Source: Oleiharenicola lentus | GTDB taxonomy: Bacteria; Verrucomicrobiota; Verrucomicrobiia; Opitutales; Opitutaceae | Assembly (NCBI RefSeq): GCF_004118375.1 | Contig: NZ_SDHX01000002.1 | Span: 547,001 to 611,000 of the forward strand | Direction of reading: 5' to 3' | DNA length: 64,000 bases | Shown here: positions 3,751-11,019 of the stretch, piece by piece | Layout of the letters: every line of letters starts with the position of its first letter | Position numbering within the stretch: the first letter of the stretch is position 1 | The notes under the pieces: model-generated | Database searches by the model: none | Told to the model about the DNA's origin: nothing | What the model saw: the letters and a program-made list of their open reading frames with translations, nothing else | Made by a program: the position numbers and the translations under genes

Positions 3751-4746
3751 ATGAAACCCCTCCAGCAGGTGATTTTCGCCGCGGGTCTCCTGATCCTCGG
3801 CGGCATCACCTGGCTGATCCTCACCCGGCCAAAACCGCAGGCGTTGTGGTTAATGCTGGAGGCACCGTCGCGGATAGCTCCCGGAGAAACCGTAACAATC
3901 CGGGCGATGCCCAACGGCATCAGCCGCGACCGGAAGCTGACCCTTGATCTCCACGGCACAACCGCTCGCCACCAGTCGCTGCGCGTGGTCAGCCATGGGC
4001 GCTCGCAAGTCATCGGCCCCGCGGGTCAGGTCATCGAGTTCCTCCTGACCGTGCCCGCCCGCCCCGACCTCGCGACGGTGCATGCCATCGTTTACGTCTC
4101 GCCCGACGGCGCCTGGGCACATCGCAGCCACGTCGCCAAATCCGAACCGATCCCGGTCGAGGTCGGCCCTGCTACAGACCGGGAACTGCGCCCGCTTCAC
4201 GTCCATGACCACACGCCCGACCCGGAAGTCCCACGCGTGGAGCTCCCCGCCCTGCGCGGGTTGCTGGTCATGCTTTGGCTCATCGTGGCGGGAGCCCTGG
4301 CTGTACGTTTTCTGAATCACTCAGAAAAAAACGGACGCGGACGCTCTCTCGCCCTCATCACCGCCAGCCTGGCCATCGCTGGCTCGGAGATTTTCCGCTT
4401 CGAACCCTATGCGAGCGAGCTGGCCCGGCAGTTTGCCCGAAAATACGGCTTCTACGACGGACGCCTCCTGCCCCAGCAGATCGCCATCGTCGTCACCGTC
4501 GTCGTCGTGGCCTCGCTCGCCGCGTTCATCCTCTTCAAAGCCCGCAACCGCCGCCTCGTGCTCGGACTCCTCGGCCACGCCGCGATCGCCACCGCCGCCA
4601 TCCTGTCGTTGCACGAGATGGATGCCCTGCTGTTCGCGACGCTCGGCGGCGCCCCGATAGAGCAGCTCGCCAAGATGTCCACGGTCTCCCTCGCCCTCTG
4701 GGGCCTGCGCCCGCTGGTTACTTCGCCGGCGCCCGGTGCTGCCTGA
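3751..4746 (+). CDS. Unrecognised multi-pass membrane protein
   Basis: The protein is 331 residues and I do not recognise a family. One N-terminal membrane segment (about residues 7-24, LLILGGITWLIL) is followed by an extracytoplasmic region of about 130 residues rich in beta-prone sequence (RIAPGETVTIRAMPNG, TVHAIVYVSPDG) that could be an Ig-like domain. About four further helices follow (LLVMLWLIVAGALAV, IAIVVTVVVVASLAAFILF, LLGHAAIATAAILSL and the C-terminal VSLALWGLRPLV). It lies 13 bp after the LOG-like gene. Its last 29 bp overlap the convergent gene ending at 4718. Function cannot be assigned. Confidence 0.75.
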   Translation: MKPLQQVIFAAGLLILGGITWLILTRPKPQALWLMLEAPSRIAPGETVTIRAMPNGISRDRKLTLDLHGTTARHQSLRVVSHGRSQVIGPAGQVIEFLLTVPARPDLATVHAIVYVSPDGAWAHRSHVAKSEPIPVEVGPATDRELRPLHVHDHTPDPEVPRVELPALRGLLVMLWLIVAGALAVRFLNHSEKNGRGRSLALITASLAIAGSEIFRFEPYASELARQFARKYGFYDGRLLPQQIAIVVTVVVVASLAAFILFKARNRRLVLGLLGHAAIATAAILSLHEMDALLFATLGGAPIEQLAKMSTVSLALWGLRPLVTSPAPGAA

Positions 4747-5392
4747 TGTAGGCGTCCACGACTTTCTCGGTCAGGACGTATTTCCAGCCCTCGGCGGTCT
4801 GTTGATACTCGGTGCCGTCGCGGGGGACGTTGGGCATGCGCAACCGGATGCGACCGACGCTGACTTCCTCGGGTGTCGCGGTGGCCAGGATGTCATGGCG
4901 CGGAAAAGGTCGCGACATGACACTCTCGGTGAGCAAGGCCGCCACGGTTTCGTCCACGGACTTCCATTGGGCCCGGACGTTTTCAGGCAAGGCGGCCACG
5001 AAGGCCTCGACTTTGGGCCGGGCGGCTTCCTCGACGAACAGCAGGCGCTGCACGGCCTCGATGTCGCCGCGATCGCAGGCCCAGGCGAAGGTCTGCAAGG
5101 TGGCCAGCGGCGTGGCGTTGCCCTCGTTGCGGTAATACTCGGCCATCCGCGAAACCGGCGTGGCCGCAGGGGAGGAAGCCGTTCCCGCGGCGACTGAGTC
5201 GCTCGAAGTCGGCGGCGGAACGGCCGACTGCCGGGCCATGACGCGCTGATGGGCCTCGAGCAGCATGCGGCTGTTCTGCGAACGCAGATGGCGCGCCTCC
5301 CGGGCGCGGCCTTGCTGGAAGTAATGAAGCCCGCCAGCGGTGACCACCGCCGACACCACGGCCACGATCAGGGAGGTTTTCAACGGAGACAT
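4718..5392 (-). CDS. Membrane-anchored copy of a sigma-fusion C-terminal domain (module 1)
   Basis: The protein is 224 residues: one N-terminal membrane helix (LIVAVVSAVVTAGGLHYF), a short charged helical stretch (REARHLRSQNSRMLLEAHQR) that may be a coiled coil, a Pro/Ser/Ala linker, then a domain with ATPLATLQTFAWACDRGD near residues 93-110 and QTAEGWKYVLTEKVVDAYI near the end. The same pattern (G-x-A-T, AWA-x-D-x-G-D, Q-x-TA-[ED]-GWKY) occurs in the gene at 6945 and in the C-terminal parts of both sigma factors here, so these are one domain family. It could be an NTF2/SnoaL-like fold, but that is a guess. It starts 5 bp after the sigma gene and is surely in its operon. Confidence 0.75.
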   Translation of the reverse strand: MSPLKTSLIVAVVSAVVTAGGLHYFQQGRAREARHLRSQNSRMLLEAHQRVMARQSAVPPPTSSDSVAAGTASSPAATPVSRMAEYYRNEGNATPLATLQTFAWACDRGDIEAVQRLLFVEEAARPKVEAFVAALPENVRAQWKSVDETVAALLTESVMSRPFPRHDILATATPEEVSVGRIRLRMPNVPRDGTEYQQTAEGWKYVLTEKVVDAYIRQHRAPAK

Positions 5393-5397
5393 GGACG

Positions 5398-6828
5398 TTA
5401 TTTTTGAACCAGCTTGGCGAGCGTCTGGCTGTTGAGGTTTTTCGGCATGTGGATGACGCCCACCTCGGGGATGACGTATTTCCAGCCATCAGCAGTCAGC
5501 TGATACTCGTGATTGTTGTGGTCGCTGCCCTTGCGGCGCATGGCCACCCGGTCGGGCTTGAGTTCGACTTCCACCATGAACCGCTCGATCAGGTCGGCAC
5601 CCGGGGGCGGCGCCTCGAGGCAAGTGGCCGCCAGCACCAGACCATAAAAAGCCTCCGGCGTCGGATACTCGGTCCGGATGGCTTCCGGCATCGTGGCCAG
5701 AATTTCCAGCGCCTTCGCCCGGGCGGCGGCATCGAAGGTGATAACCTTGGCCAGTTCGTCGGGATCGCAGATGTCGCTGGCCCAGGCAAAAGTGAACGAC
5801 GCGTCGCGTGCAGTCGCGATGCCGTGATTGCGATGGCCGCGGGGAGTTACGTCGGACGCACCGGCCGAAACGGAACTCGTCCCACCGGCCGTCGCGCCGG
5901 CCACCCGAGCGGCGTGGCGTTCCTCCAGCACGCGGGCAATTCCGGTAGCAGTCGTGGCAAATTCCCTGGCCACGGCGTCCACCTTCTCGGCCGGCGCATC
6001 GGCTGCCGTGGCCTGCGCGAGGCGCGCGTTCTCGGCGCGGAGCGTGGCCAGCTCCTCGGCGCTGACAGTGGGCACAACGGAGGTCCAGACAAGGGCGGTG
6101 ACGCCGGCGGCAATCACCGCGCTGAGCGCGGGGGCGGTTATTTTGCTCATAAGAAGGAAAGAAACAACGCCTCCGGTCGCCGGAGCGGCAGCGAGAGCGG
6201 CGGAGGTCACGTTCGACGCCAGACCCGCAGGTGCCAGGGCAAACGCCTGGTTGGCTAGTAGTAGACCCAACGCCACCGTGGTCGAAGTGACACCCCGCCG
6301 CCCCAAGTGAAACCGAAGCTTTTCCAGCGCCCGATCCGTGCGCATGCGGGCGGCGTTCTCCGACAGGTTCATCCGTGCTCCGACCTCGGCGAAGCTCAGG
6401 CCCTCGAAATAGCGCAACAACATGGCCTCGCGGTCCGACTCCTTCAGTTCGTCCAGCGCCTCGTCGAGCACCGGGCGTAAACGCTCCCAATCGATCGAAA
6501 AATCCGCGGGGACGGTGTCAGGCATGTTGGCGAAGGCTTGCGCGCTGCGCTGACGGCTTTGCTCCGCGCGCATCACGTCAATCGCCGCATTTCGGGTGCA
6601 GCGGTAGAGCCAGCCGACCAGCGCCGGGTGCCGGTCAAGTTGTGTGGCTCTACGCGCCAGTTCGATGAACACTTTTTGCGAGATATCCTCGGCGAGGTGC
6701 ACACGGCCGCCCGTCCGACGCAAGGCGGCGGCATACACCAGGCCGAGGTGGCGCTGCACAAGTTCAGCAAAGGCCCGTTCGTCGTGTTGCCGGGAATAGC
6801 GTCGGAGGAGTTCGGCATCGGGTGACAT
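5398..6828 (-). CDS. ECF-type sigma factor fused to membrane segment and C-terminal domain (module 1)
   Basis: The protein is 476 residues. Sigma region 2 is about residues 10-85 (YSRQHDERAFAELVQRHLGL; WLYRCTRNAAIDVMR) and region 4 is about 110-175 (LKESDREAMLLRYFEGLSF; NLSENAARMRTDRALEKLRF). A hydrophobic Ala-rich stretch and a clear membrane helix (SAVIAAGVTALVWTSVV, about 230-250) follow, then a helical region and a C-terminal domain (about 335-476) like that of the neighbouring anchored protein. The enzyme partner would be RNA polymerase core; the C-terminal part would lie outside the cytoplasm. I chose the ATG at 6828 because it aligns with the only possible start of the paralogue at 9065. 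An ATG at 6843, with GGAGG seven bases upstream, is a real alternative. Confidence 0.88.
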   Translation of the reverse strand: MSPDAELLRRYSRQHDERAFAELVQRHLGLVYAAALRRTGGRVHLAEDISQKVFIELARRATQLDRHPALVGWLYRCTRNAAIDVMRAEQSRQRSAQAFANMPDTVPADFSIDWERLRPVLDEALDELKESDREAMLLRYFEGLSFAEVGARMNLSENAARMRTDRALEKLRFHLGRRGVTSTTVALGLLLANQAFALAPAGLASNVTSAALAAAPATGGVVSFLLMSKITAPALSAVIAAGVTALVWTSVVPTVSAEELATLRAENARLAQATAADAPAEKVDAVAREFATTATGIARVLEERHAARVAGATAGGTSSVSAGASDVTPRGHRNHGIATARDASFTFAWASDICDPDELAKVITFDAAARAKALEILATMPEAIRTEYPTPEAFYGLVLAATCLEAPPPGADLIERFMVEVELKPDRVAMRRKGSDHNNHEYQLTADGWKYVIPEVGVIHMPKNLNSQTLAKLVQK

Positions 6829-6854
6829 GCGGTTACACTCCATAAACGGACCTC

Positions 6855-6871
6855 CAGAAAAAACCGCACAA
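6855..6871 (-). promoter_or_regulatory. Conserved upstream motif of sigma gene, copy 1
   Basis: Minus-strand TTGTGCGGTTTTTTCTG lies 26 bp before the start at 6828. The same sequence with one fewer T occurs 29 bp before the paralogous sigma gene at 9065. The bases following it also align (CGTTTATGGAG against CGGTTATAAGG). It could be part of a shared, perhaps self-regulated, promoter or a leader element. Confidence 0.5.
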
Positions 6872-6944
6872 TTTTTCTGCCAAACACCCGCAAAATCCCC
6901 CGAATGCCAACAACTCCGAAGTGCGCGCCCCAATGCGTTACAGA

Positions 6945-7661
6945 TCAGCGCTGCGGGGGAGGTTGCGACATTTTTTTGATGTAGTCATCAACGACGTCGC
7001 CGATGATCACATATTTCCACCCCTCGGCTGTTTGCCGAAACTGCAGCCCGGAAACGATGGCGCCGGGCAGCTTTAGCGTGACCCTTCCCTTCGTTATCGG
7101 CTCGATTTTGGCCAGCGCCAGAACTTCGCTTCCCGGATAAGGCTGTTCGATGCCATTGTGCACGATGATGGCAGCGGCCGCCTCCTCGACGGAACTCCAC
7201 TCGGCGCGTATCTCGGTCGGCATGGCAGTATAAATTGCGTTGGCCCTGGGTCTGGCCTCATCATCGAAAATGAAAAGTCTCGCCATCGTCCCAACGTCGC
7301 CTTGGTCGCAAGCCCAGGCCATGGTTTGCAAGGTGGCTATCGGGGTCGCCTGTCCTGCATTGAAATAGACCCTCACTGGCCAACGTCGGCTCCCACCCGC
7401 TGGCGGCGGCCGATCGGTAACGGGTCGGGAGTTCACTTTAGTCGGAGCGCCTGCCTGGTTGCTCGCTGCGCTTTGAACCGCAGGATCAAGTGCCAACGGT
7501 CGAGAGGGCTCCCGTTGACTGATGACCCTTCGCATCTGTGCGTTTTCCTTAGTCAAACGCGCTCTCTCGTGGTCGCGTTCCAATCGCGCGTAGTACTGGC
7601 TGCAAAGCACGCCGACTAAGGAGACCAAGGTAGAGATCAGGGTTATCTTCAAGAAGGCCAT
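6945..7661 (-). CDS. Membrane-anchored copy of a sigma-fusion C-terminal domain (module 2)
   Basis: The protein is 238 residues with the same plan as the gene at 4718. It has an N-terminal membrane helix (ITLISTLVSLVGVLCSQYY), a charged helical segment (ERDHERARLTKENAQMRR), a linker, then the shared domain with GQATPIATLQTMAWACDQGD, a middle segment MPTEIRAEW, and QTAEGWKYVIIGDVVDDYI close to the end. It starts 9 bp after the stop of the second sigma gene, so the two should be one transcript. Base composition is visibly less GC-rich than the aroK or purD regions. It and 4718 are closer to one another than to the sigma C-termini, as expected if the two-gene unit was duplicated as a whole. Confidence 0.75.
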   Translation of the reverse strand: MAFLKITLISTLVSLVGVLCSQYYARLERDHERARLTKENAQMRRVISQREPSRPLALDPAVQSAASNQAGAPTKVNSRPVTDRPPPAGGSRRWPVRVYFNAGQATPIATLQTMAWACDQGDVGTMARLFIFDDEARPRANAIYTAMPTEIRAEWSSVEEAAAAIIVHNGIEQPYPGSEVLALAKIEPITKGRVTLKLPGAIVSGLQFRQTAEGWKYVIIGDVVDDYIKKMSQPPPQR

Positions 7662-7670
7662 GGCGGTCGT

Positions 7671-9065
7671 TCAGTTCAGGCCCAGTTTCACCACGATTTC
7701 ATTATTCAGTAGCTTCATCAGTCCAGCATCACCTCCTGGTCTGATCGAAAACTGTATCTTCCAACCGTCCGCAGTTCGCACCATAGGGGCGCCACTTCCT
7801 GTCGAGCCAGCTTTGCGCAACACCACCCGCTCAGGGCTGACGTCCGTCGCGACGTACTTCCTGATCTGCTCGACGCCGGTCGGAGGTTTCAACACAGCGG
7901 CAATCAACTGCGCATGAACGAAGAGTTCTTGCGGAGTGTGGTATCGCGCCCGGATCGATTCGGGCGCTCGGGCGTACAGCCCTTCCAACTCCTTCTGCCC
8001 TGCTTCGTCGAAGGTGATCAGATTGCCCAAAGCAACGGCGTTGCCCGCATCGAGCGCCCAGGCATAACTCAGCAAGGCATCCTCTGCCGTCGCCTGGCCA
8101 TGGTCGCTATGCCTTCCTATTACTTCCGCCTGTTTTTCTGTTGTCCGCCCTTCAACCAGGAGCGCGGCGGGCATTGCCGACGCGGCCATCCTGGGTGTTG
8201 CCGGGTCAATCACAGGCTGATCTCGCAAAGCCGCCATGGCGACGGAGAGCCGGGAGTTTTCAGCCTGCAGGACAGCCAATTCGCCACGGCTGGCACGTGC
8301 TTCCGATAGGGACCAGCCCAAGCTGGTAAATCCTGCCACTAATCCCGCCCCGATCCAAACCGCAGCCACTTTATTCAAAGCCAAAAGGCCCAGTAGCGAT
8401 GCGAGGGTGCCAGCCGGGGCCGCCGCTATCGCCGCTGCGGTCACGCTGGACGCCAGTCCAGCAGGAGCAGTCGCCAGCGTCTGGTTCGCCAACAACAGGC
8501 CCAAGGCCGCCGTCGTGGAGGAGACCCCCCGCTTACCCAACTGCGCGCGAAGTTTGTCGAGAGCCCGCTCTGTGCGCATCCGGGCTGTGTTTTCGGATAG
8601 ATTCATGCGCTCGCCCACCGCGGCAAAGCTTAGCCCGTCAAAATAGCGCAACAGCATAATCTGACGGTCCGCCTCCTTGAGATCATCCATGGCTTCATCA
8701 ATCACCGGGCGCAGATTTCCCCAGTCGGCCTGGGGTTCCGCGTCTAAGGAATCATCCGCCATGGCAGTGAACGATTGGGTGAGTTTTTGGTGACGAATCT
8801 CGCTTCGGGCGGCATCAATCGCCGCATAGCGGGTGCTGCGATGAAGCCACCCTATCAATGCCGGGTGGTGTTGCAGCGAGGCCGCTTTATGTGCGAGATC
8901 AGTGAATACTTTCTGTGCGATTTCCTCCGCCACATGGGTGCGCCCATGGGTCCGTCGCAGGGCCGCGGCATAGACTAGATTGAGATGTCTCCGGACCAAT
9001 TCGGAAAAGGCCCTTTCATCGTGCGCTTTGACGTAACGGTGGAGGAGTTCGGCATCAGTGGGCAT
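7671..9065 (-). CDS. ECF-type sigma factor fused to membrane segment and C-terminal domain (module 2)
   Basis: The protein is 464 residues and a clear paralogue of the gene at 5398. Region 2 has HDERAFSELVRRHLNLVYAA and AEEIAQKVFTDLAHKAASL; region 4 has LKEADRQIMLLRYFDGLSFA and MNLSENTARMRTERALDKL. After an Ala-rich hydrophobic stretch (TAALGLLLANQTLATAPAGL) comes a membrane helix (VAAVWIGAGLVAGFTSLGW, about residues 230-250), a short heptad-like region (ELAVLQAENSRLSVAMAAL) and the C-terminal domain (AWALDAGNAVALGNLITFDE; RTADGWKIQFSI). The start MPTDAELL is the only reasonable one. An anti-sigma factor gene is not evident next to it; the fused part may take that role. Confidence 0.88.
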   Translation of the reverse strand: MPTDAELLHRYVKAHDERAFSELVRRHLNLVYAAALRRTHGRTHVAEEIAQKVFTDLAHKAASLQHHPALIGWLHRSTRYAAIDAARSEIRHQKLTQSFTAMADDSLDAEPQADWGNLRPVIDEAMDDLKEADRQIMLLRYFDGLSFAAVGERMNLSENTARMRTERALDKLRAQLGKRGVSSTTAALGLLLANQTLATAPAGLASSVTAAAIAAAPAGTLASLLGLLALNKVAAVWIGAGLVAGFTSLGWSLSEARASRGELAVLQAENSRLSVAMAALRDQPVIDPATPRMAASAMPAALLVEGRTTEKQAEVIGRHSDHGQATAEDALLSYAWALDAGNAVALGNLITFDEAGQKELEGLYARAPESIRARYHTPQELFVHAQLIAAVLKPPTGVEQIRKYVATDVSPERVVLRKAGSTGSGAPMVRTADGWKIQFSIRPGGDAGLMKLLNNEIVVKLGLN

Positions 9066-9094
9066 GCGGGCTTAACCCTTATAACCGCGCCCCG

Positions 9095-9110
9095 CAGAAA
9101 AACCGCACAA
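9095..9110 (-). promoter_or_regulatory. Conserved upstream motif of sigma gene, copy 2
   Basis: Minus-strand TTGTGCGGTTTTTCTG lies 29 bp before the ATG at 9065 and matches the element at 6855-6871. A TTATAA sequence lies 17 bp after the TGCGGT core and could serve as a -10 region. Without expression data this remains a candidate. Confidence 0.5.
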
Positions 9111-9156
9111 ATATTCCTTTTTTTCCTTTTTTCCGCTCAAACCCATTCCTTTGGTT

Positions 9157-11019
9157 TCAAGCCCAAGTGCGTATTCCGATGAGTCCCCAGGCCAGGCCAA
9201 AACCGGTGATAAAAACAAGACCGAGCGTCACGAGTACGGCATGCCAGTAGGCCACGCGATTCATCGGCGTCTTGCGGTGGCGCCAAAGCCCCGCCACGCA
9301 AAAGGTTGCGCTTAGCGGAATCAGTAGGGTGTCGAGCATCAATCCGACCGACCAGATATTCATTGTGCCCACGATGTGGATATGCCCCTCCTGGACTTTG
9401 AGGTAGAAGGCGATAAAACCCACGATCCCGACCACACCCACCAAGGGCCATGTCCGCGGTCCAAGCGGGCCGGCATTCTTCAATCGTCCGAACGCCAGAC
9501 GAAGCCCCCAGACCACCGCGAACAGCACCGAGCTCAGCAAGATACCGAACGAGTAAAGCATTCCGTATTGCACGGACCAAAATCCAAACTTCGAGATGCG
9601 CCGGAAGGTGCCCAAATAGCATTGCAGTAGCGTTTCGCCGTTCTCTCCCGTGATCACGGCGAGTTCCGGCTTCGCGCCGTCATGCAGGCGAAAAAGATTA
9701 CCGGACACCGGCACCCACCTCAATGCCCCCCGCATCATGATCATTTCCTTCTCCTCCACCCGGATTTTTCGAATGCTCCCGAAATACTCCATGAAGTCGC
9801 GATATCCTTCATCACGCGGAGCGATATTGGCATAGAGGCCGTTGAAATCCTGATTCACAATTGCCGGCATCGGACCCGCGGGCGGGGACGCCTTCTCCGG
9901 GGCATGGCGCATCGCGTACAGCCGCACCAAATTATTTACCCTGGCAAAAGCGCTCACGTTATTTGAGTTGAGCATGACCACCAGGCCGATGCCCAGCTCC
10001 GGACAATATTCCATGGTCACGAAGCATGCGTCATGATTGCCATTGTGGCCATGCCACTCGTAACCGCGCGAGAACATCGCGCGGTTATACAAGCCATAGC
10101 CAACCGTCACCCCCGCTTGAGCCGACGGTAAAGTGGTCGGCACTTCGAGACGGTCGATCGATGCTTCCCGCAGAATCTGCCGACCATCAAAACTGCCGCG
10201 CATCAGATGAAAGCGCACGTAGTTGGCCATGTCTTCGACCGAGGCGTTCACGGCACCCGAGGGACGATAGATGAGGTGGGAATAAGACGCTACTTTGTGG
10301 CTTCGGCTCCAATACATCGTGGTCAGGTTCGATTGCACTTCCGGCGTCAGAAAGTAGCTCGCGGTGTGCATCTGGAGTGGGACAAAAAAATTGTCGCGGA
10401 CATAGTCCTCGAAGCGTTGCCCCGATGCTTTCTCGATCACGGCCGCCACCAAGGCTGGTCCCACGCTACTGTAGGCGTAGCGCGAACCGGGACGCCAGCG
10501 GATGACCCGGTATTGCGGGGCAAAATTCAGCGCCTGGGCCAGCGTGACCGGAGTGGAATCATTGTGTGCATACTCGCTGAAACGACAATCGGGGATGCCA
10601 GAGGTTTGCTCCAGCAAATGCACGAGGCGCACCGGATCCGTGGATTCCCAAGCGTTCTCCACAGGATATTCCGGCACCCATTGCCGCAACGTATCGGTCA
10701 GCTTCAGTTTCCCTTCCTCCTGTAACTTCAGTGCTGCGAGTGCCACAAACTCCTTTGACGTCGAGCCGATGCGAAAAATCGTTTTGGTCGTCACGGGCTG
10801 ATTAGCCGCCTCGTCCGCCAAGCCCAGTCCGGCCATCCACTCAATCTTGTCTCGGGACACAATCGCGACTGCTGCTCCCGGCGTTTGCCTTTCCTTAAGC
10901 ACTTTCTCTATCGCCTGCCGCAACTCTTCAACCGTCTGCGGCCCTGTATTTTCGGCAAAGAGGATTGGACCAGCAAGGAACACGAACAGGCTAAGATAGA
11001 ACTGAGGCTTAAAAAACAT
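9157..11019 (-). CDS. Exported serine hydrolase, beta-lactamase class C / DD-peptidase-like, with C-terminal membrane helices
   Basis: The protein is 620 residues. An N-terminal signal sequence (FYLSLFVFLAGPILFAEN) precedes the hydrolase domain. The nucleophile motif S-x-x-K is in RIGSTSKEFVALA (about residue 88), the second motif is the YSS of RYAYSSVGPAL in place of the usual Y-x-N, and HGHNG stands where K-T-G would be, as in many esterase-like members. The last 150 residues hold about four membrane helices (YSFGILLSSVLFAVVWGL, GVVGIVGFIAFYL and others). Substrate could be peptidoglycan peptides, a D-amino peptide or an ester; it need not be a beta-lactamase. GC content is lower than in surrounding genes. 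No partner gene is evident. Confidence 0.85.
   Translation of the reverse strand: MFFKPQFYLSLFVFLAGPILFAENTGPQTVEELRQAIEKVLKERQTPGAAVAIVSRDKIEWMAGLGLADEAANQPVTTKTIFRIGSTSKEFVALAALKLQEEGKLKLTDTLRQWVPEYPVENAWESTDPVRLVHLLEQTSGIPDCRFSEYAHNDSTPVTLAQALNFAPQYRVIRWRPGSRYAYSSVGPALVAAVIEKASGQRFEDYVRDNFFVPLQMHTASYFLTPEVQSNLTTMYWSRSHKVASYSHLIYRPSGAVNASVEDMANYVRFHLMRGSFDGRQILREASIDRLEVPTTLPSAQAGVTVGYGLYNRAMFSRGYEWHGHNGNHDACFVTMEYCPELGIGLVVMLNSNNVSAFARVNNLVRLYAMRHAPEKASPPAGPMPAIVNQDFNGLYANIAPRDEGYRDFMEYFGSIRKIRVEEKEMIMMRGALRWVPVSGNLFRLHDGAKPELAVITGENGETLLQCYLGTFRRISKFGFWSVQYGMLYSFGILLSSVLFAVVWGLRLAFGRLKNAGPLGPRTWPLVGVVGIVGFIAFYLKVQEGHIHIVGTMNIWSVGLMLDTLLIPLSATFCVAGLWRHRKTPMNRVAYWHAVLVTLGLVFITGFGLAWGLIGIRTWA

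Follow-up and report, generated by a model that had tools for sequence, protein, structure and literature searches.

The window analyzed here is a stretch of 64,000 nucleotides from the genome of Oleiharenicola lentus (assembly GCF_004118375.1, contig NZ_SDHX01000002.1, positions 547,001–611,000), and coordinates are given as window positions, i.e., the position on the contig (G000:C2) minus 547000. The window's minus strand carries two consecutive gene pairs, module 2 (6945–9065) and module 1 (4718–6828). In each, an extracytoplasmic function (ECF) sigma factor is extended by a membrane helix and then a C-terminal domain, and the next gene encodes a membrane-anchored partner carrying the same kind of domain. 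Sigma 2 (7671–9065, 464 residues) matches Sigma70_r2 at 5.4e-07 and Sigma70_r4 at 2.1e-13, and sigma 1 (5398–6828, 476 residues) matches them at 3.5e-12 and 8.9e-13. Both regions lie above the Pfam cut-off in both proteins, as does, among the NCBIfam matches listed, the ECF superfamily model TIGR02937; ECF sigma factors have regions 2 and 4 as their only promoter-binding parts. In sigma 1, a membrane helix is predicted at about residues 233–251 (6076–6132, minus strand), with a hydropathy of 2.0 over 19 residues and a helix at 233–251 in a low-confidence structure model. Anchored partner 2 (6945–7661, minus strand, 238 residues) begins 9 bp past the stop codon of sigma 2, and anchored partner 1 (4718–5392, minus strand, 224 residues) 5 bp past that of sigma 1. 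Each partner has a single N-terminal helix, followed in partner 1 by a coiled-coil-like stalk.

The shared domain was located with a profile in all four proteins, on the minus strand throughout: in sigma 2 at 7740–8111 (E 1e-29, open-frame residues 321–444), in partner 2 at 6984–7367 (E 2e-39), in sigma 1 at 5449–5835 (E 4e-42), and in partner 1 at 4751–5134 (E 1e-44). In BLASTP comparisons, the C-terminus of sigma 1 is 31% identical to partner 1 over 142 columns (E 9e-18) and that of sigma 2 is 29% identical to partner 2 over 122 columns (E 1e-12); the domain also matches between the two modules. A first-pass annotation of this DNA had described two such units with sigma-to-partner gaps of 5–9 bp, and the open reading frames, Pfam matches, and BLASTP alignments bear out both this layout and its coordinates. 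It had also listed three sequence marks of the domain. G-x-A-T and TA-x-GWK are present in all four copies, whereas AWA-x-D-x-G-D is exact only in the two anchored proteins, the sigma factors retaining AWA-x-D.

The C-terminal domains of both sigma factors and both partners have no Pfam match above cut-off, and the partners have no NCBIfam match. An AlphaFold model of partner 1, computed from a 4-row alignment, shows a helix-rich first part followed by a 4-strand sheet, with a mean predicted local distance difference test score (pLDDT) of 66.7; within residues 91–220, 11 of the 13 ten-residue blocks score 71–87 and the other two 58–64. The model of sigma 1 (mean pLDDT 48.9) was too poor for a structure search. 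The order of elements, helices and then a 4-strand sheet, is similar in the two proteins, but in one moderate and one poor model. A Foldseek search with the partner model gave a best E of 0.11 and none at or below 0.001, with NTF2-like, ketosteroid-isomerase-like, or SnoaL-like proteins in the top rows. The 50 VIA-align matches listed reach Z values of at most 6.8, which are common without a clear match, and are mostly NTF2-like chains together with the outside domain of RsgI9 (7sjy). Among 66 of the 67 stand-alone members of the domain described below, Pfam reports DUF4878 in five (best 6.7e-4) and DUF4864 in two, families that we take to be NTF2-like. A match to Chlamy_scaf in ten of the 66 members (best 6.9e-5, a better E than that of DUF4878) was dismissed as fortuitous, the structure searches favoring an NTF2-like fold. 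With moderate confidence, the shared domain may be regarded as NTF2-like.

Out of 150 genomes of the window's family that were searched with the domain profile, 38 have members, and the own genome is one of these. A domain alignment search of 387 genomes drawn from the phylum, with at most 10 candidates scored per genome, retrieved 12, all of them in the window's family. Stretches around the domain matches in the family genomes were then surveyed for modules, giving 67 stand-alone domain genes after a duplicate locus (L025) was dropped. Of these, 55 lie directly 3' of such a sigma gene, three of them in the own genome. The third pair is located on the other contig (G000:C1), where a sigma gene (L022:3180–4475, minus strand) ends in TonB_C (PF03544, 2.3e-18 in Pfam) and precedes the gene of an anchored domain protein. 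When the start codon nearest the sigma stop is chosen, 53 of the 55 gaps range from −14 to +87 nucleotides and two are near 300. The pairing thus recurs in relatives. The presence of the domain on both proteins, which the first-pass annotation had described for the window, is found in 17 of the 55 modules, the window's two among them, but is not constant, the other 38 sigma factors ending otherwise. According to profiles built here, the sigma C-terminus is TonB_C in 29 modules, the shared domain in 17, and something else in nine. TonB_C was above the Pfam cut-off in all three sigma factors of that type that were tested. Three of the nine others were searched with Pfam, which gave ExbD in two (3.1e-6, above, and 0.01, below cut-off) and TPR below cut-off in one; five more of the nine are ExbD-like by eye. 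Besides the module genes, no gene family occurs in more than 6 of 52 loci, within flanks of about 4 kb or less.

One locus from the window's genus (L149) has a 627-residue open frame comprising a sigma factor, a sigma-side domain, and a partner-side domain. In the domain tree, its first domain groups with the sigma-side and its second with the partner-side domains. This frame looks like a natural fusion of both genes in which the partner's helix was lost, and it is the best evidence in this analysis to suggest that the two domains work together. In the same tree, which is unrooted and built from few columns, the domain-bearing sigma factors form two well-separated groups, perhaps three, and the domain has therefore been swapped between partner and sigma at least twice.

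Upstream of the module sigma genes lies a predicted promoter, TTGTGCGGTTT-N16-TAT. That of module 2 occupies 9081–9110 on the minus strand (G000:C2:556081–556110), beginning 45 nt before the start codon, and that of module 1 occupies 6842–6871 on the minus strand (G000:C2:553842–553871), beginning 43 nt before it. The end coordinate 9110 given in the first-pass annotation coincides with the upstream end of the module 2 promoter, an element that the annotation did not mention. An alternative in-frame ATG of sigma 1 at 6843 overlaps the predicted −10 box, so that the start at 6828 is likelier. The element is common to all three module sigma genes of the own genome, starting 42–45 nt before the start codon, and in the 4.7 Mb genome it has exactly three matches, all before module sigma genes, and none with one mismatch. 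Two-mismatch matches number seven, against eight in the reversed control, and six of the seven lie inside open frames of more than 150 codons; they were rejected as further targets. A second promoter pattern gave two exact matches and 13 at three mismatches, the third module's promoter among them, against 19 in the control, and TTGTGCGGTT alone occurs eight times, three of them at modules, against 14 in the control.

Across the family, 45 of 66 sigma genes with upstream DNA have a promoter score of at least 9, three of which had been retrieved by motif. Among the 63 not so retrieved, 42 score at least 9 and 56 at least 8, while shuffled upstream regions reach 9 in 0.15% of cases. A looser pattern run over the 150 family genomes gave many matches; of 28 placed loci, 11 precede a family sigma gene and 17 do not. 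In the promoter sites of the sigma genes, selected by score, two −35 positions are variable and most others are nearly invariant.

The variable bases were compared with the residues of 59 sigma factors whose promoter score is at least 8, including the three retrieved by motif, all of which pair G with Asn. At position 4 of the −35 element, G goes with Asn at residue 158 of region 4 in 35 of 38 cases, T with Asp in 14 of 14, and C with Asp or Glu in 7 of 7. This pair leads all 4998 base–residue pairs (z 25), followed by the same −35 base with residue 162 (z 14.7) and a −10 base with residue 84 of region 2 (z 13.4). Residue 162 lies one helix turn beyond 158, where C is accompanied by Lys in six of seven cases, and G at the −10 position is accompanied by Lys at residue 84 in 15 of 19. 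Position 7 of the −35 element has no clear residue partner (best z 5.8). Shared ancestry raises scores of this sort, but it should not pick out residues 158, 162, and 84 in particular. In a close relative (L024), base and residues differ together. Since the variable promoter bases track the DNA-reading residues, each sigma factor very probably reads its own promoter, an autoregulation with strong computational support. Promoter contact by regions 2 and 4, predicted here through residues 84 and 158/162, is typical of ECF sigma factors, among which autoregulation is common. Sigmas 1 and 2 share the same predicted promoter code and probably cross-activate, whereas sigma 3, of the TonB_C type, differs at −10.

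In family sigma factors, the order is sigma core, one clear hydrophobic stretch, and C-terminal domain, with one weaker second segment seen in part. Judged by hydropathy alone, a stretch above 1.6 separates the core from the C-terminal domain in 87% of 70 sigma factors. The domains of the TonB_C, ExbD, and SLBB families are extracytoplasmic, and sibling sigma factors carry TonB_C, ExbD (one of two above cut-off), or SLBB (one) at the place of the shared domain. Charge balance places the partner domain outside in 39 of 58 partners, with 11 equal and 8 against, nine of the 67 not being scored. These two lines of evidence point to a C-terminal domain outside the membrane. Ahead of their hydrophobic stretch, partners 1 and 2 have just five residues, and the mean in 58 partners is 5.3 when the start is taken as the first Met within 14 residues before the stretch. 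Neither window partner can be a classical anti-sigma factor if its domain lies outside, because no cytoplasmic part would be left to hold the sigma factor. This agrees with the earlier statement that no ordinary anti-sigma gene is adjacent. Inspection by eye shows, in both proteins of most modules, a helix that leads into a coiled-coil-like stalk, so that contact may run through the stalk or the helix. Stalk likeness is modestly higher in true partners than in other pairings (mean percentile 0.68 over 51 pairs, kinship ignored).

Several known systems resemble these modules in part. IutY of Pseudomonas putida (ECF243) is a sigma factor that a single helix links to a FecR-like domain in the periplasm, and like the window sigmas, whose C-terminal domain is placed outside by prediction, it combines ECF sigma, helix, and outside domain in one chain with no separate anti-sigma factor (PMC8999054, PMC9249621). 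It is cleaved, Prc and RseP being the proteases named (PMC9249621). The window sigmas differ in having no FecR match in a Pfam profile search up to E 1, in possessing a separate partner with the same domain, and in seeming to read their own promoter. The FecI-FecR pair and TonB-linked cell-surface signalling likewise carry an envelope signal across the inner membrane to an ECF sigma factor, and TonB_C on sibling sigma factors recalls them. In the modules, however, sigma and membrane part form one chain, and no further gene family recurs beside them beyond the 6 of 52 loci noted above. The RsgI system of Clostridium thermocellum is Gram-positive, and RsgI is an anti-sigma factor with a cytoplasmic sigma-binding part. 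RsgI9, which also serves in sigma control, nevertheless bears an NTF2-like domain that faces outward (7sjy; PMC12203970).

The actinobacterial ECF48, ECF52, and ECF53 groups, e.g., SCO4117, share a C-terminal fusion with helices; SCO4117 also has an outside binding domain, and release by proteolysis has been proposed (PMC8999054). They belong to another phylum and have a zinc finger before the helix, whereas the window sigmas have no Pfam zinc-finger match and their modules include a partner gene. In the SnoaL group of ECF41 and ECF56, no membrane helix separates the sigma core from the domain, which is reported or predicted to contact the core, whereas a hydrophobic helix lies between the two in the window sigmas, and the window partner carries the same domain as the sigma factor. 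An NTF2-like (SnoaL-like) C-terminal extension, which the domain of the window sigmas may resemble, is present in ECF41, ECF56, ECF205, ECF294, and ECF295, and a co-transcribed neighbor, RsfG, binds SigG1 of ECF56 (PMC7730460). Membrane-fused ECF sigma factors and NTF2-like extensions are both already known (PMC8999054, PMC9249621, PMC8103513, PMC7730460, PMC12203970).

At a rough probability of 0.6, each pair constitutes a self-contained switch from envelope to DNA in which the sigma factor is tethered, released, and self-amplifying. The DNA-reading part of the sigma factor would lie in the cytoplasm and be connected by one membrane helix and a stalk to an NTF2-like domain outside, while the partner, encoded a few bases downstream, would place the same kind of domain outside by its own helix. 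A complex of the two through the domain, the stalk, or both may keep the sigma factor tethered and silent. A change in the envelope would alter this complex and expose the sigma factor to proteolysis, first in the periplasm and then within the membrane, of the kind known from Prc and RseP in IutY. The freed sigma factor would then direct RNA polymerase to the promoter before its own gene, amplifying the module, a step with strong computational support. Proteases of the M50 and S41 families, presumably RseP-type and Prc-type, are encoded in the genome, which shows only that such cleavage is possible. That domains touching each other outside the membrane exert the control is a plausible hypothesis.

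Several findings weigh against this switch. For twelve of the 67 stand-alone domain genes, no sigma gene was counted: one lies at a contig end that truncates it (L112), one stands behind a split sigma gene (L118), and ten have other neighbors. At L118 (4083–5540, plus strand), the sigma frame ends after the stalk and the next domain frame, which has no helix, groups with the sigma-side domains; it looks like a domain-bearing sigma gene split into two frames. In addition, six domain-bearing sigma factors, the L149 fusion among them, have no separate partner, and the pair is therefore not obligatory. A second, alanine-rich segment with hydropathy above 1.6 precedes the helix in 41% of the 70 sigma factors, and if it crosses the membrane, the sigma's domain would be inside. 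On the tree, 12 base changes fall on all branches, their direction not being reported, while the well-supported branches hold three independent pairs in the expected direction (p 0.25), a number that allows no significance alone. Seven of the 63 sigma genes score below 8 and so have no good promoter match, and at the stringency tested, no promoter target besides the modules' own was found in the own genome.

The partnerless sigma factors also fit a different account, in which the sigma factor alone is the sensor, as in IutY, and the partner acts as co-sensor, chaperone, or ligand-binding helper for its outside domain rather than as a holder. The 38 modules whose sigma factor does not end in the shared domain favor it too, since like-with-like contact cannot be general; the tight gene coupling in 55 modules and the fusion suggest, on the other hand, that the partner is normally needed, which leaves this account possible but unlikely. 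Somewhat less probable is a sigma factor that binds RNA polymerase while tethered and is active at the membrane without release, domain contacts only altering its conformation. Cleavage in these modules is itself a proposal, and good conservation across four aligned sigma factors makes the alanine-rich stretch that links region 4 to the helix a possible switch element. Yet cleavage does occur in IutY (PMC9249621), whose architecture is the nearest among those studied, and proteases of both families are encoded, though such proteases are common.

A cytoplasmic C-terminal domain, held on a hydrophobic hairpin and acting on the sigma core like SnoaL_2 of ECF41 or SigJ, would suit the NTF2-like appearance of the domain and the additional hydrophobic segment; it is made improbable by the TonB_C, ExbD, and SLBB domains at the same place on sibling sigma factors and by the charge balance of the partners. 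Recognition of the promoter element by the housekeeping sigma factor or by some other regulator is very improbable: the element was found by conservation only, but its variable bases covary best, of all pairs compared, with regions 4 and 2 of the module's own sigma factor. Gene order and a membrane-bound partner recall an ordinary ECF sigma factor with a membrane anti-sigma factor. A sigma factor that is itself membrane-fused, a partner with about five residues ahead of its hydrophobic stretch, and the lack of an anti-sigma Pfam match make this hardly credible, and a canonical anti-sigma factor in the partner was rejected for want of a cytoplasmic domain, assuming that the domain lies outside.

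Further observations concern the surroundings of the modules. In the window, partner 1 and a convergent membrane-protein gene (3751–4746) overlap tail to tail by 29 bases (4718–4746). A recent tandem duplication of the two modules was ruled out: the sigma factors are 49% identical, and sigma 2 has, for its core, a closer match (81%) in a sigma factor of another genome. At a locus whose anchored protein is 87% identical (L023), the sigma gene directly adjoins a gene that by eye resembles purD. The window region 6945–11019, which holds module 2 and a serine-hydrolase-like gene (9157–11019), is missing between the two, and this block has therefore been inserted or lost. Elsewhere in the family, 12 kb of one genome (L100; G023:C102:38500–50500) hold five sigma genes of the family with partner genes interspersed and differing −35 variants, which looks like an expanding paralogue array. 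One sigma factor of the family (L101:5213–6505, plus strand) ends in an SLBB domain above the Pfam cut-off, and two others (L101:747–2501 and L100:7298–9049) have long C-termini resembling Spy/LTxxQ proteins by eye, with no Pfam match in the one tested. Three domain proteins without a sigma gene (L098:4384–5388, L103:4869–5675, and L113:4462–5247) have neighboring membrane-protein genes that resemble one another; in L103 and L113, an ABC ATPase gene can also be recognized by eye. In the domain tree, the domains of all three group with other sigma-less copies.

What appears to be new here is the predicted self-promoter before the module sigma genes, whose exact matches in the own genome all lie at modules. 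The combination of these known sigma features with a like-domain anchored partner, the exchange of outside domains with TonB_C and ExbD-like ones, and the module-only promoter were likewise absent from the literature titles among the matches listed, which name neither a sigma–TonB_C or sigma–ExbD fusion nor a like-domain pair, an absence that is weak as such. More tentatively, sigma factors throughout the family may be wired to the envelope by exchangeable outside domains (NTF2-like, TonB_C, ExbD-like, SLBB) and mostly governed by an anchored NTF2-like partner that does not touch their cytoplasmic part, each following a promoter code of its own and, as far as the stringency applied in a single genome shows, targeting nothing except the modules.

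Where the control of ECF sigma factors is known, it mostly lies with a separate anti-sigma factor that holds the sigma. In these modules, sensor, tether, and sigma factor seem to be one chain, and the partner seems able to act only from the membrane or the outside. With an exact promoter, a base-to-residue code, and a natural fusion of both genes into one, the system is open to immediate testing, and the differing promoter codes of the paralogues could serve as orthogonal parts. Should the TonB_C and ExbD-like versions function as their makeup suggests, RNA polymerase could receive signals from the Ton/Tol machinery or its outer-membrane clients with no anti-sigma factor involved.

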